Shown here one piece after another: positions 3,621 to 24,341 of a DNA stretch of 24,618 bases. A program made the translations under genes and the position numbers. Under the pieces are notes generated by a model that saw nothing but the letters and a program-made list of their open reading frames with translations, made no database searches and was not told the DNA's origin. Position 1 is the first letter of the stretch. Every line of letters starts with the position of its first letter. The stretch is from a virus: positions 1 through 24,618 of IMG/VR virus record IMGVR_UViG_3300042197_003773; one strand, given 5' to 3'.

Positions 3621-4115
3621 TTAATCTGTCAAATGCGTCCAGATCTTTCGCCGACGCACAAGACTAATCAGGGATTCAGACACACCATATTTAGCAGCTA
3701 AATAACGTAAAGTAGCTGTACTAGCCCTAATATGTTTGACTGCCTCGTCGTTTAACTTGGCTTTTGCATTGTCACTACCGCGTAAACCTATCCTACGGTT
3801 TCTTGTAGCAGTATCACGCATATTCTGTGCATGATCTCCTGGGTATAAATGAGCAGGATTACAGCACCGTGTATTATCGCAGTAATGAAGTGCGTGTTCA
3901 CTTGGTAAAAGACTACGTCCTAGCTTTATGGCAAGAGCAACTCTGTGAGCTCTAACCATACGACCGTTAAAATGAATAGATCCGTAGCCTTTACCTGAGC
4001 CTTTTAGGCAACCTAGCCACTCCCAGCACGAATCGGGATTAGTTCGTTTGATTTTAGCCCAGAATCTATTCTCTAGATCTAAGCGTTGTGTCGAACCTAA
4101 AGGAGGCAGTTTCAT
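3621..4115 (-). CDS. HNH homing endonuclease with C-terminal HTH
   Basis: 164 aa from the ATG at 4115, which lies two bases after the TGA of the DUF932 gene; an in-frame GTG at 4136 would add 7 residues. The order LENRFWAKIKR ... CWEWLG ... GKGYGSIHFNGRMVRAHRVA ... HYCDNTRCCNPAHLYPG is the HNH_3-type nuclease (H-C-N/H core). A helix-turn-helix tail follows (LNDEAVKHIR ... LAAKYGVSESLISLVRRRKIW) that would give DNA specificity. These proteins nick or cut cognate alleles lacking the gene and spread by repair. The gene is clearly AT-richer than both neighbours, consistent with recent independent arrival. It is free-standing; the upstream DUF932 gene appears complete. Confidence 0.9.
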   Translation of the reverse strand: MKLPPLGSTQRLDLENRFWAKIKRTNPDSCWEWLGCLKGSGKGYGSIHFNGRMVRAHRVALAIKLGRSLLPSEHALHYCDNTRCCNPAHLYPGDHAQNMRDTATRNRRIGLRGSDNAKAKLNDEAVKHIRASTATLRYLAAKYGVSESLISLVRRRKIWTHLTD

Positions 4116-4117
4116 AC

Positions 4118-5197
4118 TCAAACGAGGGAAAGACACGCAGCGCGAGCGCGCTCAATACGTTTAGCACCTTCCCCGCCCCATAGACTCAAGAGGCGGGCGC
4201 GGGCGCGCTCGGTGGAGTCGGTGGAGCGGCCGGTGTCGTGGGTGGCGTGCTGGGTGATGGCGTTGAAGAGGCCGTAGAGGGTGCCGGCTACGCCGGGGAT
4301 GTCGCGGATACCCAGGCCGGTGTCACCGGCGTAGTGGTTGCGGATGGTGGCGACCTCTTTGAGGTCCGCGATGGTGCGGGGGCGCTTGTCGCCGGTGGAT
4401 TTGTCGCGGATGGGGGTGGCGAGCTTGTCGGCGTAGGTGGCCTCGAGGACGCGGCGGGCGAGCTCGGTGGTGAGCTGCACGTTGGCGAGGGAGCGCATCT
4501 CGTCGACAGAGCGGGCGAAGCTGCGGCGCTCGAGGTCGATGAGGTGGGGCAGCTGCTGGGCGAACTGCGTGACGGAGGCGGTGTGCTTGCGGCGGAGGCC
4601 GGCGCCCTCGTGGACAGCGTTGCCGACGGCCTTGCCGGTGAGGTAGGCGAGCTGGTTGGCGCAGATCAGGCGGACGTCGCTGAAGAAGACGCCGAAGCCG
4701 CTGCTGCCGTCGTGGGAGTTGAAGAGGTGGAGGTAACGGCGGACGCGGTCGCCGGGGACGACTTCGTCCTCGGTGTCGATGGTGGCCGTGGCGAAGACCT
4801 TGCGGCCGCCGCGGATGGAGAGGACGCTCTCGATGTGGATGTCCTCGCGGAGGTAGTCGAGGAGGCTGATCAGGGCGTTGTTCTGGACGGGGGTGTAGCC
4901 GGTGCCGTGGATGCCGAGTAGGCCGTCGGTGTCGCTGCGGACGATGGCGACGTGCTCGGGGGAGGTGATGGGGCCGTCGGCGCCCATGAAGGTGACGGGG
5001 CGGCGCTCAGCGGTCCAGTCGAGGCCGGCGATGGTGAAGGCCTCGGAGGCGGAGGCGCGCTCGGGGATGAAGGTGCCTACCTGGGCGGTGAGGGGGTTCA
5101 CGGCGTAGCCGTGGTCGCGGTAGCGGCCGTAGACCATGGGGCCGTGGCCGTTGGCGGCGTAGGCGGTGGAGACAGTGTTAGGGGCGTAGTCGCGCAT
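4118..5197 (-). CDS. DUF932 (phage/plasmid-like, TIGR03299-type) protein
   Basis: 359 aa from the ATG at 5197 (MRDYAPNTVSTAYAANGHGP); the longer open frame upstream is Pro/Ser-rich antisense-like sequence and is rejected. Recognisable parts are PVTFMGADGPITSPEHVAIV, DGLLGIHGTGYTPVQNNALI, GRKVFATATID, YLHLFNSHDGSSGFGVFFSDVRLICANQL and the C-terminal LWGGEGAKRIERA. These are signatures of the DUF932 family, common on phages and plasmids and in some genomes near replication or defence genes; the biochemical role is not established. Length matches the family. The preceding 85 bp hold three hairpins. An HNH gene follows immediately. Confidence 0.9.
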   Translation of the reverse strand: MRDYAPNTVSTAYAANGHGPMVYGRYRDHGYAVNPLTAQVGTFIPERASASEAFTIAGLDWTAERRPVTFMGADGPITSPEHVAIVRSDTDGLLGIHGTGYTPVQNNALISLLDYLREDIHIESVLSIRGGRKVFATATIDTEDEVVPGDRVRRYLHLFNSHDGSSGFGVFFSDVRLICANQLAYLTGKAVGNAVHEGAGLRRKHTASVTQFAQQLPHLIDLERRSFARSVDEMRSLANVQLTTELARRVLEATYADKLATPIRDKSTGDKRPRTIADLKEVATIRNHYAGDTGLGIRDIPGVAGTLYGLFNAITQHATHDTGRSTDSTERARARLLSLWGGEGAKRIERARAACLSLV

Positions 5198-5809: not shown

Positions 5810-5817
5810 GAGACTCA
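5800..5817. repeat. Tandem pair of 9-bp TGAGACTCA sites
   Basis: TGAGACTCA occurs twice head-to-tail with no gap (5800-5808 and 5809-5817). Each copy is a near-palindrome TGAG-N-CTCA. The pair spans the stop of the RlpA-like gene and the start of the 84-aa gene. The same tandem 9+9 layout occurs at 10571 and 14629 and, less perfectly, at 17268, 18858 and 20590. Confidence 0.8.
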
Positions 5818-6087
5818 GTAGGAGATGTGGACGGTGGCGATGCCGTCGAGCGGGACGCCGAGGCGGTAGGCAGCGCCGGCGCTGAGATCGAGCGAGCTGC
5901 AGTCGCAGCGGTCGGTGATGGGCACCATGAGGGAGCGGCCTCGGTGGGAAACACGCACTCGGGTGCCGCAGGGGAGCCAGGGGTGCGCGGCGGAGTAGCC
6001 CCAGTGGTCGTAGCGCTGGCCGCAGTAGGTGGTGCGGCCTGCGTAATAACTATCGTAAACCGTTGCAATCACTGGACGGGCTTGGCC
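5815..6087 (-). pseudogene. RlpA-like double-psi beta-barrel domain, 3' part of a split gene
   Basis: GQARPVIATVYDSYYAGRTT leads into YCGQRYDHWGY, GTRVRVSHRGRSLMVPITDR and DLSAGAAYRLGV. This is the RlpA/3D-type double-psi beta-barrel, with YYAGRTTYCG in place of the usual ASWYG start and the ITDRC/DLS signature of the family. Family members are secreted cell-wall-binding or wall-degrading proteins. The expected signal peptide is not directly upstream; it is found beyond the HNH gene at 6661-6720. The open frame continues to an ATG at 6471 (with another at 6231) through sequence antisense to or overlapping the HNH gene, so an N-terminally altered product is possible but unproven. Confidence 0.7.
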
Positions 6088-6655
6088 AGTTAAGGGCGAT
6101 AGTAGGAATAACGTGCTTCCAAGTCCTGCCACAAAGTGCTTGATAAAGCGCCCGGTTGGTAACGCCGTATCTATGCGCCAGCGCAGTAATAGAGCTCCCT
6201 GGCTGCCAGGTACGACGCAAATCAATGACATCTTGTTCTGTGAGTCTCGCGGAGGGATGCGAGGATCCTTTGACTGGATTGCCGCATCCAAACCGTCCGT
6301 GACTGACAGCGTGTGCTGAGTTCTCTTGGTAAGTAACCCACTCAAGATTCGATACATGGTTGTCGGAATGGTTGAAGTTGATGTGATTGACACATGGCTT
6401 GTTCTCTGGGTTCGGTAGGAAGGCTTCGGCAACAAGGCGATGAAGATAAAAGCGCGTGCCTTGACCTTCATGGAACAAAGAAACGCCTAAGTACGCGCCG
6501 GTCTTTTTGGGAATGACTATTCGACCTTTGTGCATGCGTTCTTTTCCTGTTTGTTCCCTTACAAGCCGATCCAGTGATCTCACGCGACCTTCTGAAGAAA
6601 CTAAATAGAAGGGAGCGAACCGTGGATCGGTTACAGGCGTCCAGACTTCAGCCAT
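6050..6655 (-). CDS. NUMOD4/HNH homing endonuclease, 201 aa
   Basis: The N-terminal NUMOD4-like motif EVWTPVTDPRFAPFYLVSSE (then GRVRSL) is followed by HNH_3: YLHRLVAEAFLPNPENKPCV, NHINFNHSDN, VSNLEWVTYQENSAHA. A C-terminal HTH follows (RLTEQDVIDLRRTW ... YGVTNRALYQALCGRTWKHV). All domains are complete, so the enzyme should be active. The last 19 or so codons (IPTIALNWPSPSSDCNGLR) go beyond the usual GRTWKH ending and read into the RlpA-like domain in another frame. The gene is AT-richer than its surroundings and sits exactly between the signal peptide and body of the RlpA-like gene, so it looks like an insertion. No room is left for a conventional group I intron core outside the ORF. Confidence 0.9.
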   Translation of the reverse strand: MAEVWTPVTDPRFAPFYLVSSEGRVRSLDRLVREQTGKERMHKGRIVIPKKTGAYLGVSLFHEGQGTRFYLHRLVAEAFLPNPENKPCVNHINFNHSDNHVSNLEWVTYQENSAHAVSHGRFGCGNPVKGSSHPSARLTEQDVIDLRRTWQPGSSITALAHRYGVTNRALYQALCGRTWKHVIPTIALNWPSPSSDCNGLR

Positions 6656-6660
6656 GGCTA

Positions 6661-6720
6661 TCAGCGATCGGAATCCGGCGCGCAGAGCGCGAGCGCCGCG
6701 AACAGGGCGAGGCGCTTCAT
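6661..6720 (-). pseudogene. Signal-peptide 5' fragment of the split RlpA-like gene
   Basis: MKRLALFAALALCAP is a textbook signal peptide (KR n-region, Leu/Ala-rich h-region), then DSDR and a TGA stop. The ATG at 6720 overlaps the stop of the upstream 67-aa gene by 4 bp (ATGA), so this is a genuine, formerly functional gene start. Joining CAP to QARPVIATVYDSYY at 6084 would restore a normal secreted RlpA-like protein of about 105 residues. The HNH start codon at 6655 follows 5 bp after the stop. Confidence 0.68.
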
Positions 6721-10726: not shown

Positions 10727-11617
10727 TTAAGCGTCGAAAGCTTCCCAAGTGTAGGAGAGCTCTACACGTAGCTTGTGTAGGGCTTTTTTGTACATGGCGG
10801 AGATGCGATATCGCGATATGTTCAGCTCTTCCGATAGCTGATGCAAGCTGCGCTTCTCAAAGTACAGTGATTGCACGATCAGATGTTGTGTTGGATCGAG
10901 CGTGCCGAGTGCGCGGTAGAGCAGCTCTTCGCGCTCGGTGGATAGAACCGCTAGGTCCGGGGATTCGTTGATGGTGGGGTTGTCAGTAGTGAGTACCTCG
11001 AGAATAGATGTATCTGATAGCTGGCAAAGGGAATCAATAGACGTGCAATCGGTGATGGTGCAGCTGACTAAGGTCTCGGTTATGCGCTCACAGGGGAGGT
11101 CGAGCTCGGTGCTCAGCTCCTCGAGGGTGGGGGGCCTGCCATAAGCTGCAGTTAATGTGTGTATTGTGCGGCGGATTTTTGTAGCTAAATCCTGTACGTT
11201 AATCGGTAGCCGTATTGTGCGGGATGAGTTGTAGAGCGCGCGTGATATTGACTGCCTAATCCACCAGTAGCTGTAAGTGCTAAAGGCGTAGCCGCGAGTA
11301 GGGTCAAAGAGCTCGATACCGCGGATGAGGCCGAGGCTGCCCTCCTGGATGAGGTCGCTCAGCTCGAGGCCGCGGTTCTGGTAGCGCTTGGCGAGGTGAA
11401 CAACGAGCCGCAGATTGGTGCGCACCATGATGTCCAGGGAGCGCTTGCCGAGCCGGGCAACGTGAGCGGGGGCGGCTGTGCGATCGGGCTCGGAGGCACC
11501 GGGTGGCGTGTAGTCGACCCAGGCGCGGATGCGGTAAGCGTGGCGGAGCTGCGCTTCGCGGGAGAGGATCGGGTGCCGGGCGATGTCGCTGAGGTACTTG
11601 GAGATGAGATCCGACAT
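10727..11617 (-). CDS. Sigma-70 family sigma factor (cyanobacterial group 1/2-like)
   Basis: 296 aa. Region 1.2 (SDLISKYLSDIARHPILSRE) is followed by region 2 (NLRLVVHLAKRYQNRGLELS, DLIQEGSLGLIRGIELFDPT, YAFSTYSYWWIRQSISRALY, SRTIRLP), region 3 (IRRTIHTLTAAYGRPPTLEE) and region 4 (ALGTLDPTQHLIVQSLYFEK, then LHQLSEELNISRYRISAMYK). The -10 recognition segment is close to primary sigma factors. The region 4.2 recognition helix differs: SRYRISAMYKKAL replaces the usual SRERVRQIEKEAL, which implies altered -35 or activator contacts. It would redirect host RNA polymerase to element promoters, probably late ones. It is the last gene of the early minus-strand operon; its 3' two thirds are AT-richer than its 5' end. 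Confidence 0.93.
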   Translation of the reverse strand: MSDLISKYLSDIARHPILSREAQLRHAYRIRAWVDYTPPGASEPDRTAAPAHVARLGKRSLDIMVRTNLRLVVHLAKRYQNRGLELSDLIQEGSLGLIRGIELFDPTRGYAFSTYSYWWIRQSISRALYNSSRTIRLPINVQDLATKIRRTIHTLTAAYGRPPTLEELSTELDLPCERITETLVSCTITDCTSIDSLCQLSDTSILEVLTTDNPTINESPDLAVLSTEREELLYRALGTLDPTQHLIVQSLYFEKRSLHQLSEELNISRYRISAMYKKALHKLRVELSYTWEAFDA

Positions 11618-22460: not shown

Positions 22461-22967
22461 CTAGCCTTGCGCGAACTCTCCGTGTAGCTTTGCGCGTAGT
22501 GCCAATGCTGCTGCAGCAGCTTCTTCTTTTGTGTCAAAGTAGCCGGCGTGATGCTGTCTACGGTCTAACTGGACAACGGCTCTCCATTTGCTGATGTTTT
22601 TATACCAGTAAACGCCCTTGACGCCCGATGCGCTGTTTGAGTTAGCTCCCCGGTTCATGCCGTTTTGGGAGTATGTGGCCGCACGCAAATTCTCGATGCG
22701 ATTATCCGCCTTATTCCCGTTAATGTGGTCTAAGACAGGGGCGAGATTTTTACCGTGCATTGCCCATACAATGCGATGTACATAGTATAGTTTTCCGTCA
22801 ATACCAACCTGTAAATACCCTTTAGCAGAAAGAGTGCCGACTGGGCGTCCCATTTTGCGGCGAGGCTTGTAAACCTTCCAGAAAAGATTTCCGCTTTTGT
22901 AAGTAAAAAGCTCGTTGGCTTTTTCGCAGCTCAGGTCGGAGCGGCGGTGATAAGCTCTTTTTGTCAT
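22461..22967 (-). CDS. HNH endonuclease with C-terminal AP2-like domain
   Basis: 168 aa from the ATG at 22967 (MTKRAYHRRSD); a longer start at 23009 is less likely. KSGNLFWKVYK leads to MGRPVGTLSAKGYLQVGIDG, YYVHRIVWAMHG, PVLDHINGNKADNRIENLRA and ATYSQNGMNRG, the HNH_3 core (H-N-N). SGVKGVYWYKNISKWRAVVQ and HHAGYFDTKEEAAAAALALR then form an AP2/ERF-like DNA-binding domain. This is a third architecture, different from the two HNH genes on the left. It is free-standing between two tiny membrane-protein genes and AT-richer than the left-hand operons. Confidence 0.9.
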   Translation of the reverse strand: MTKRAYHRRSDLSCEKANELFTYKSGNLFWKVYKPRRKMGRPVGTLSAKGYLQVGIDGKLYYVHRIVWAMHGKNLAPVLDHINGNKADNRIENLRAATYSQNGMNRGANSNSASGVKGVYWYKNISKWRAVVQLDRRQHHAGYFDTKEEAAAAALALRAKLHGEFAQG

Positions 22968-23033
22968 CGTGGAAAAGCACGGTGGCCGGGGGCAAGGTGT
23001 TGCAAGCACCGTTGCCCCGCAACTATGGCAAGA

Positions 23034-23471: not shown

Positions 23472-24341
23472 TCATAGTACAGGCATTTCGTATTCCTGGG
23501 TAGTGTTGCAGTAATGCTTGAAGATCACCTCGCTTGTGTTTCCCGCCCATGCAGCGACTTGAGGTACGGGAATCCCTGCTTCGATCCAACGGCTGATGGC
23601 GGTGTGGCGACAGTCGTAAGGACGGTATAAGTGTGAGATTAGTTCTACTTGTTTGAGAGGGCTTAGCTTTTTACGAAAGTAGCTCTGGAAGGCAAGGCGA
23701 TCCCAAGGAAATAAATACTCATCTGTTTGAGGTAAACTAGATAGTATGTCGAGACAGCGTTGGTTAAGTGGTACCCAGCGTTTTTTGTTAGTTTTTGTAC
23801 TATTTTTTATTCCATGAGTAAGTGTGTAATTTTGATGGACTAACACACGATTATCTTTAATGTCGTTCCACGTTAGCGCACGGACTTCACCTGTGCGCAT
23901 AGCTGTTTGGAGCATAAACTCTGTGTATAAAGCCCAGTTAACGTGCTTGTACGTTTGCTTAGCTTCTAATGCGGCTAGGACAAGTCCTACTTCATTACGC
24001 GGTATTACTATTATATCTTCATCTTTTTGGGGTGCTTTGGGCATTTTGAAGCTAGCTAACGGGTTACGCGGTATAAGTGCTACGTCTTCCTGCGCAGCCC
24101 AGCGATACATTGTTTTAAGATACATAGCAACACGTCTGGATGTGAGTACTGGCTGTTGACCTAGTACCCAGATCATGATCTCACGAGCTCGGGAAATATC
24201 TTGCTGAGGGCAGCGAGCTAGCCATTTAGTAACTTGCTTGTAGTCTGATGTAAGACTTGTCGGGCAAAGCGATATGGCGCGTTCTGTTTGGAAAGCGATC
24301 CACAGATCGGATAGGAGCATGCTGATAGGTTGAGCCAGCAC
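23472..24341 (-). CDS. int: Tyrosine-type integrase
   Basis: 289 aa. The N-terminal core-binding region (SDLWIAFQTERAISLCPTSL ... RVAMYLKTMYRWA) is followed by the catalytic domain: box I LQTAMRTGEVRALTW (R149), a Lys-rich beta hairpin (STKTNKKRWVPL), box II YRPYDCRHTAISRWIEAG (R245; Tyr242 where His is usual) and VPQVAAWAGNTSEVIFKHYC (N268 at the usual His position, nucleophile Y277). It has the normal catalytic Arg/Arg/Tyr and a full-length fold. It integrates and excises the element at an att site, which is not identified here. AT-rich relative to the replication genes. An alternative start at M8 is possible. Confidence 0.93.
   Translation of the reverse strand: MLAQPISMLLSDLWIAFQTERAISLCPTSLTSDYKQVTKWLARCPQQDISRAREIMIWVLGQQPVLTSRRVAMYLKTMYRWAAQEDVALIPRNPLASFKMPKAPQKDEDIIVIPRNEVGLVLAALEAKQTYKHVNWALYTEFMLQTAMRTGEVRALTWNDIKDNRVLVHQNYTLTHGIKNSTKTNKKRWVPLNQRCLDILSSLPQTDEYLFPWDRLAFQSYFRKKLSPLKQVELISHLYRPYDCRHTAISRWIEAGIPVPQVAAWAGNTSEVIFKHYCNTTQEYEMPVL

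Follow-up and report, generated by a model that had tools for sequence, protein, structure and literature searches.

Background

To avoid causing harm, homing endonuclease genes usually reside inside introns or inteins, or in the spaces between genes. Several arrangements have been described in phages and in fungal mitochondria. The free-standing seg and mob genes of bacteriophage T4 are promoter-less and overlap their neighbours (PMC2988022). In Aeromonas phage Aeh1 the gene mobE is inserted in nrdA, and in T4 mobA is inserted in gene 60; both are intron-less insertions that split the gene in which they reside, an arrangement known as 'genes-in-pieces' (PMC2988022). In the fungi Allomyces and Glomus, the mitochondrial mORFs found in atp6, atp9, cox2 and nad3 bring with them a recoded replacement of the C-terminus of the invaded gene (PMC3630166).

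In this work we analyzed a 24.6 kb stretch of viral DNA, the IMG/VR record IMGVR_UViG_3300042197_003773 (hereafter, the window), in which an intron-less HNH endonuclease gene interrupts a conserved gene whose parts remain intact, as in the genes-in-pieces. The interrupted gene encodes a secreted RlpA-like barrel protein. The window also carries genes for a DNA polymerase A, a primase-helicase, an integrase, a sigma-70-type factor (10727-11617, minus strand, with regions 1.2 to 4) and a DUF932 protein. A cyanobacterial host is likely, given that the named relatives of the barrel, all below 50% identity, are found mostly in Synechococcus phages. No second barrel gene is present within the window, and the record may be a fragment.

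Results

The barrel gene of the window is split by an HNH gene

A preliminary description had proposed that the gene of a RlpA-like secreted protein is split here by an HNH gene, and both the Pfam domains and the existence of uninterrupted relatives confirmed it. All the features of the split locus are on the minus strand. The ATG at 6720 opens the sequence MKRLALFAALALCAPDSDR, whose stop ends at 6661; this remnant of the 5' end of the barrel gene (6661..6720) is the signal peptide MKRLALFAALALCAP followed by DSDR and a stop (TGA TAG), that is, the truncated signal peptide originally noticed. Five bases past this stop lies the ATG of the HNH homing-endonuclease gene (6050..6655), which encodes 201 aa with NUMOD4 (4e-7, 30.6 bits, cut-off 23.4) and HNH_3 (9e-9, 35.3 bits, cut-off 24.8) domains and belongs to PHROG 59. 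Its GC content is lower than that of its surroundings, and the HNH-motif residues VNH, DN and NLEW..T..EN are invariant in the three lineages that were aligned. The mature RlpA-like DPBB barrel (5815..6078; RPVIATVYDSYYAGRTTYCG...) shows a DPBB_1 match (1.6e-16, 60.7 bits, cut-off 28.8) and is similar to PA4485 (4avr). The barrel shares its frame with the severed signal peptide, one frame ahead of that of the HNH gene. As had been described, the 3' end of the HNH gene overlaps the barrel in another frame; the barrel frame, which is the +1 frame of the HNH gene, contains no stop in the 136 codons that precede the mature protein (6079..6486).

Close relatives with the same neighbouring genes (L003-L006) carry an uninterrupted gene that reads MKRLALFAALALCAPAQARHVTATVY; in L005 and L006 the continuous sequence is MKRLALFAALALCAPAQARHVTATVYHEWYHGRTTYCG, and L003 and L004 are near-identical. 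These relatives show that the gene is normally continuous. A search for such homologues had been suggested as a means to define the ends of the insertion, and the comparison with the empty gene of L003 did so: nucleotide homology is lost at about 6677 and is found again from about 6039. The first ~13 codons of the barrel (6078-6040) are unlike the empty allele in nucleotide sequence. From these two breaks it follows that the insert also replaces about 16 codons past the cut, and that it encodes this segment of the protein with a different nucleotide sequence.

Four HNH lineages occupy the same site

Searches with the HNH and barrel sequences revealed the same split arrangement on eight further viral contigs, and four HNH lineages in all, including that of the window. 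The HNH proteins are about 48-58% identical to that of the window (56-57% for L042-L045, 48% for L064, L066 and L067, and 53% for L140); the endonucleases found at this one site differ by about 50%. Two further scans, with the HNHs of L140 and L064, gave no new split loci; of the 80 loci retained in a genome scan for HNH relatives, not one was next to a barrel; and among the best matches listed in named phages, the HNH relatives were about 40% identical and none was at this site. An HNH relative (39%) was observed in L131 (3668-4060, minus strand) just downstream of an unsplit barrel and on the opposite strand. On contig IMGVR_UViG_3300044591_000287 (L108 and L119), a barrel gene lies near both ends, possibly as two copies or as an end repeat.

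In a tree, the five split-locus HNHs that were included group as a single clade (100/96), whereas the barrels of the split loci are scattered among unsplit barrels. The histories of the HNH and of the barrel are therefore different, as expected of a mobile element. In addition, presence/absence polymorphism at a single site was found in relatives of the window: L081 is an empty allele whose flanks are mostly 94-99% identical to those of L042 and L066, which means that near-identical phages are either empty (L081) or carry an HNH of type A (L042) or of type B (L066). The HNH gene is, with hardly any doubt, a homing element inserted into the barrel gene. Cleavage of the empty site and homing by this HNH are putative activities.

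The ends of the insert vary. In L066 about 625 bases are inserted past the VTAT codons, and the 3' end of the insert encodes HAREVTAS and rejoins VYDSWYHGR in frame, which gives the insert its own copy of the mature N-terminus. In L042, 632 bases take the place of 79 that comprised the mature start and most of the signal peptide. In L140 the native sequence is left at about MIRA on the 5' side and is recovered at about VTATVYATEF, nearly as in L009, and the exchange is essentially limited to the signal-peptide codons. The HNH start also differs; in L064 it is a TTG that overlaps the stop of the signal-peptide piece, and in L042 the HNH is fused to the old ATG of the barrel. We also looked for remnants of the 5' exon past the break in L066, L140, L042 and the window, but the similarities (e.g. 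QWYH in L140) were not significant when compared with shuffles, and hence we propose no target-site duplication.

Two other HNH genes are present in the window, both on the minus strand. One (3621-4136) begins directly after the DUF932 stop codon (TGAGTATG), a position where the relative L005 has no HNH, and looks like another homing endonuclease insertion, in this case intergenic. The other (22461-23009) encodes HNH_3 and AP2 domains and is near the integrase gene (23472-24341).

The barrel frame is kept open over the 3' end of the HNH gene

In all four lineages the barrel frame runs on into the HNH gene. Before the mature Arg, this frame is open for 136 codons in the window, 117 in L042, 103 in L064 and 64 in L140, and the residues that precede this Arg are TGRFIKHFVAGLGSTLFLLSPLTGQA, TGRYTKHLAGILGSTLLLNVQLTGHT, RRRLFTRFFAAAVGSTWSLLLPSTGHA and MALHGARWTCLFAAGLGATLIQPLPLIA, respectively. 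The pattern GLGSTL, shared by these sequences, follows in part from the conserved HNH motif GRTWKHV read in the other frame; for this reason shuffles and natural controls were needed. In the shuffle test, the synonymous codons of the HNH gene were shuffled, and the openness and hydrophobicity of the barrel frame were scored. The open run gave P values of 0.002 (window), 0.0013 (L042), 0.020 (L064) and 0.31 (L140), and the stretch before the barrel was more hydrophobic than the shuffles with P values of 0.012, 0.049, 0.021 and 0.11, in the same order; only L140 was not significant in either score. As a natural control, 122 non-redundant related HNHs from elsewhere were examined, with the run counted to a fixed point, 8 codons beyond the conserved C-terminal motif of the HNH. 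At least 60 codons of the +1 frame were open in 4/4 split lineages (130, 111, 97 and 60) and in 1/122 controls (Fisher test, 4e-4 with GC-matched controls and 5e-7 overall; these values overstate independence, as the four lineages are one clade). In L042, L064 and L140 the TAG stop of the HNH gene is embedded in the codons that encode the presumed cleavage site, which forces the Arg codon to be AGG or AGA; the empty alleles L005, L009 and L081 use CGN.

The overlapping stretch resembles a signal peptide

The preliminary description had suggested that a hydrophobic stretch of the barrel frame could serve as a substitute signal, and this became the key point of the analysis, since the stretch recurs in the four HNH lineages. 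It has a signal-peptide-like layout ahead of the conserved mature N-terminus. In the window the candidate replacement signal peptide (6079..6231) reads MSLICVVPGSQGALLLRWRIDTALPTGRFIKHFVAGLGSTLFLLSPLTGQA from the ATG at 6231, with a hydrophobic core at about 6135-6085; GTG 6132 is an alternative start. A crude rule for signal peptides (basic n-region, uncharged hydrophobic core, small residue at the cleavage site, and an in-frame start) was passed by 3/4 lineages (the window passes, L064 fails), by 1/122 controls and by 91/113 native barrel N-termini. In L042 a Thr occupies position -1 of the presumed cleavage site. No start codon supported by a Shine-Dalgarno sequence was identified for the barrel, and the likely start varies by lineage. 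An ATG or TTG is found 50-53 codons ahead of the Arg in 4/4 lineages, but such a conserved internal start was set aside, start codons being too frequent in this region to count. Considering these data, the odds that the overlapping stretch acts as a signal peptide appear slightly better than even.

Most of the original signal peptide is absent in L042 and L140; hence, in these loci the barrel must start inside the HNH region. The preliminary description noted that the two pieces, once joined, give a normal secreted protein, but the functional product of the split loci is probably not the joined pieces.

The interrupted barrel is likely still in use

In all lineages the barrel is intact and retains the RlpA motifs AAH and DR. 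For most pairs dN is lower than dS, by itself a weak sign because the barrels recombine; the maintenance of the upstream frame is a stronger sign of a live barrel. We consider it likely that the barrel of the split loci is still expressed. The alternative that the HNH insertion disabled the barrel, leaving either a pseudogene of recent origin or a cytoplasmic protein with no leader, which looks intact through recent insertion and recombination, is in our opinion unlikely. It agrees with the loss of the signal peptide, with the lack of a convincing internal ribosome site, and with the recombination between split and unsplit barrels. Against it, every lineage keeps the barrel and at least 60 upstream codons open, unlike the control HNHs, no stop or frameshift was found in the barrel frame of any split locus, and the divergence of the HNHs at this site shows that the arrangement, as a type, is not recent.

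It is improbable that a programmed +1 frameshift from the HNH yields the barrel as a fusion protein, or that the barrel arises by reinitiation past the HNH stop. The +1 position of the barrel frame, its long open run, and the overlap of the HNH stop with the barrel start in L042, L064 and L140 would fit such a mechanism, but no slippery site was recognised, the hydrophobic stretch would be buried by the HNH part of the fusion, and reinitiation downstream of the stop would give a leaderless barrel. Finally, an unrecognised self-splicing intron (or an intein) that restores the original protein is very improbable: the signal peptide and barrel of the window share a frame and HNH genes are often within group I introns, but, in agreement with the absence of an intron core noted from the start, an Rfam covariance search found no catalytic core of group I or II introns and no relevant match at gathering or relaxed thresholds, the HNH ORF occupies nearly the whole insert, the insert ends differ between lineages, removal of the insert would not restore the full coding sequence in L042 and L140, whose 5' piece is without most of the signal peptide, and an intein would require a continuous frame, while the HNH is one frame off with stops in between.

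Discussion

We favour, as the rather probable explanation of these sequences, that a phage gene encoding a secreted RlpA-like barrel was invaded at its 5' end by a mobile HNH homing-endonuclease element without an intron, and that the 3' end of this element supplies a new signal peptide through which the barrel would be exported. The expression of the HNH would exploit the old start region of the barrel gene. Translation of the barrel would begin inside the HNH gene, in a second frame, and the overlapping stretch would take over as signal peptide, with cleavage close to the original site (..xA↓RxVTA). In this manner the element would restore the protein that it interrupted, lowering its own cost. 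The 3' end of the element thus probably doubles as a replacement signal peptide. There is about an even chance that the HNH gene is under dual coding selection and that the +1 frame of its 3' end encodes a functional signal peptide together with the mature N-terminus of the interrupted gene.

If this is true, the parasite carries a built-in repair of the 5' end of its target, and may move between phages without knocking out the secreted protein. To the ways in which homing endonuclease genes avoid harm, confirmation would add overprinting, in which the 3' end of the parasite doubles as the missing export signal of the host gene, and it would offer a case, open to testing, in which an alternative reading frame gave rise to a signal peptide. 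The empty and occupied alleles are a natural set for studying how homing elements settle in a coding sequence. Among open-licence papers we found no report of a replacement N-terminus that overlaps an endonuclease gene.

The product of the interrupted gene resembles the RlpA-type DPBB proteins (PA4485, PDB 4avr) in its DPBB_1 domain and in the conserved AAH and DR motifs, which align; in contrast, the phage barrel is a short, single-domain protein with extra conserved cysteines, and its activity is putative. As for the element, the seg and mob genes of T4 also use the transcript and start region of a neighbour; nonetheless, they are located between genes and cut off no signal peptide. The insertions in nrdA of Aeh1 and in gene 60 of T4 are closer, given that an intron-less phage HNH gene splits a protein gene that appears to be still used. 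In those systems two polypeptides reassemble, whereas here only the signal peptide is severed and the remainder seems to be given a new N-terminus by the overlapping HNH sequence. In this respect the fungal mORFs are also alike, since an endonuclease ORF enters a gene with a recoded copy of part of it and a hybrid results. There the replacement is a C-terminus and is located upstream of the endonuclease ORF; the phage locus would be the mirror image, with a replacement N-terminus that overlaps the endonuclease ORF in another frame, and this overlap would be its new feature.
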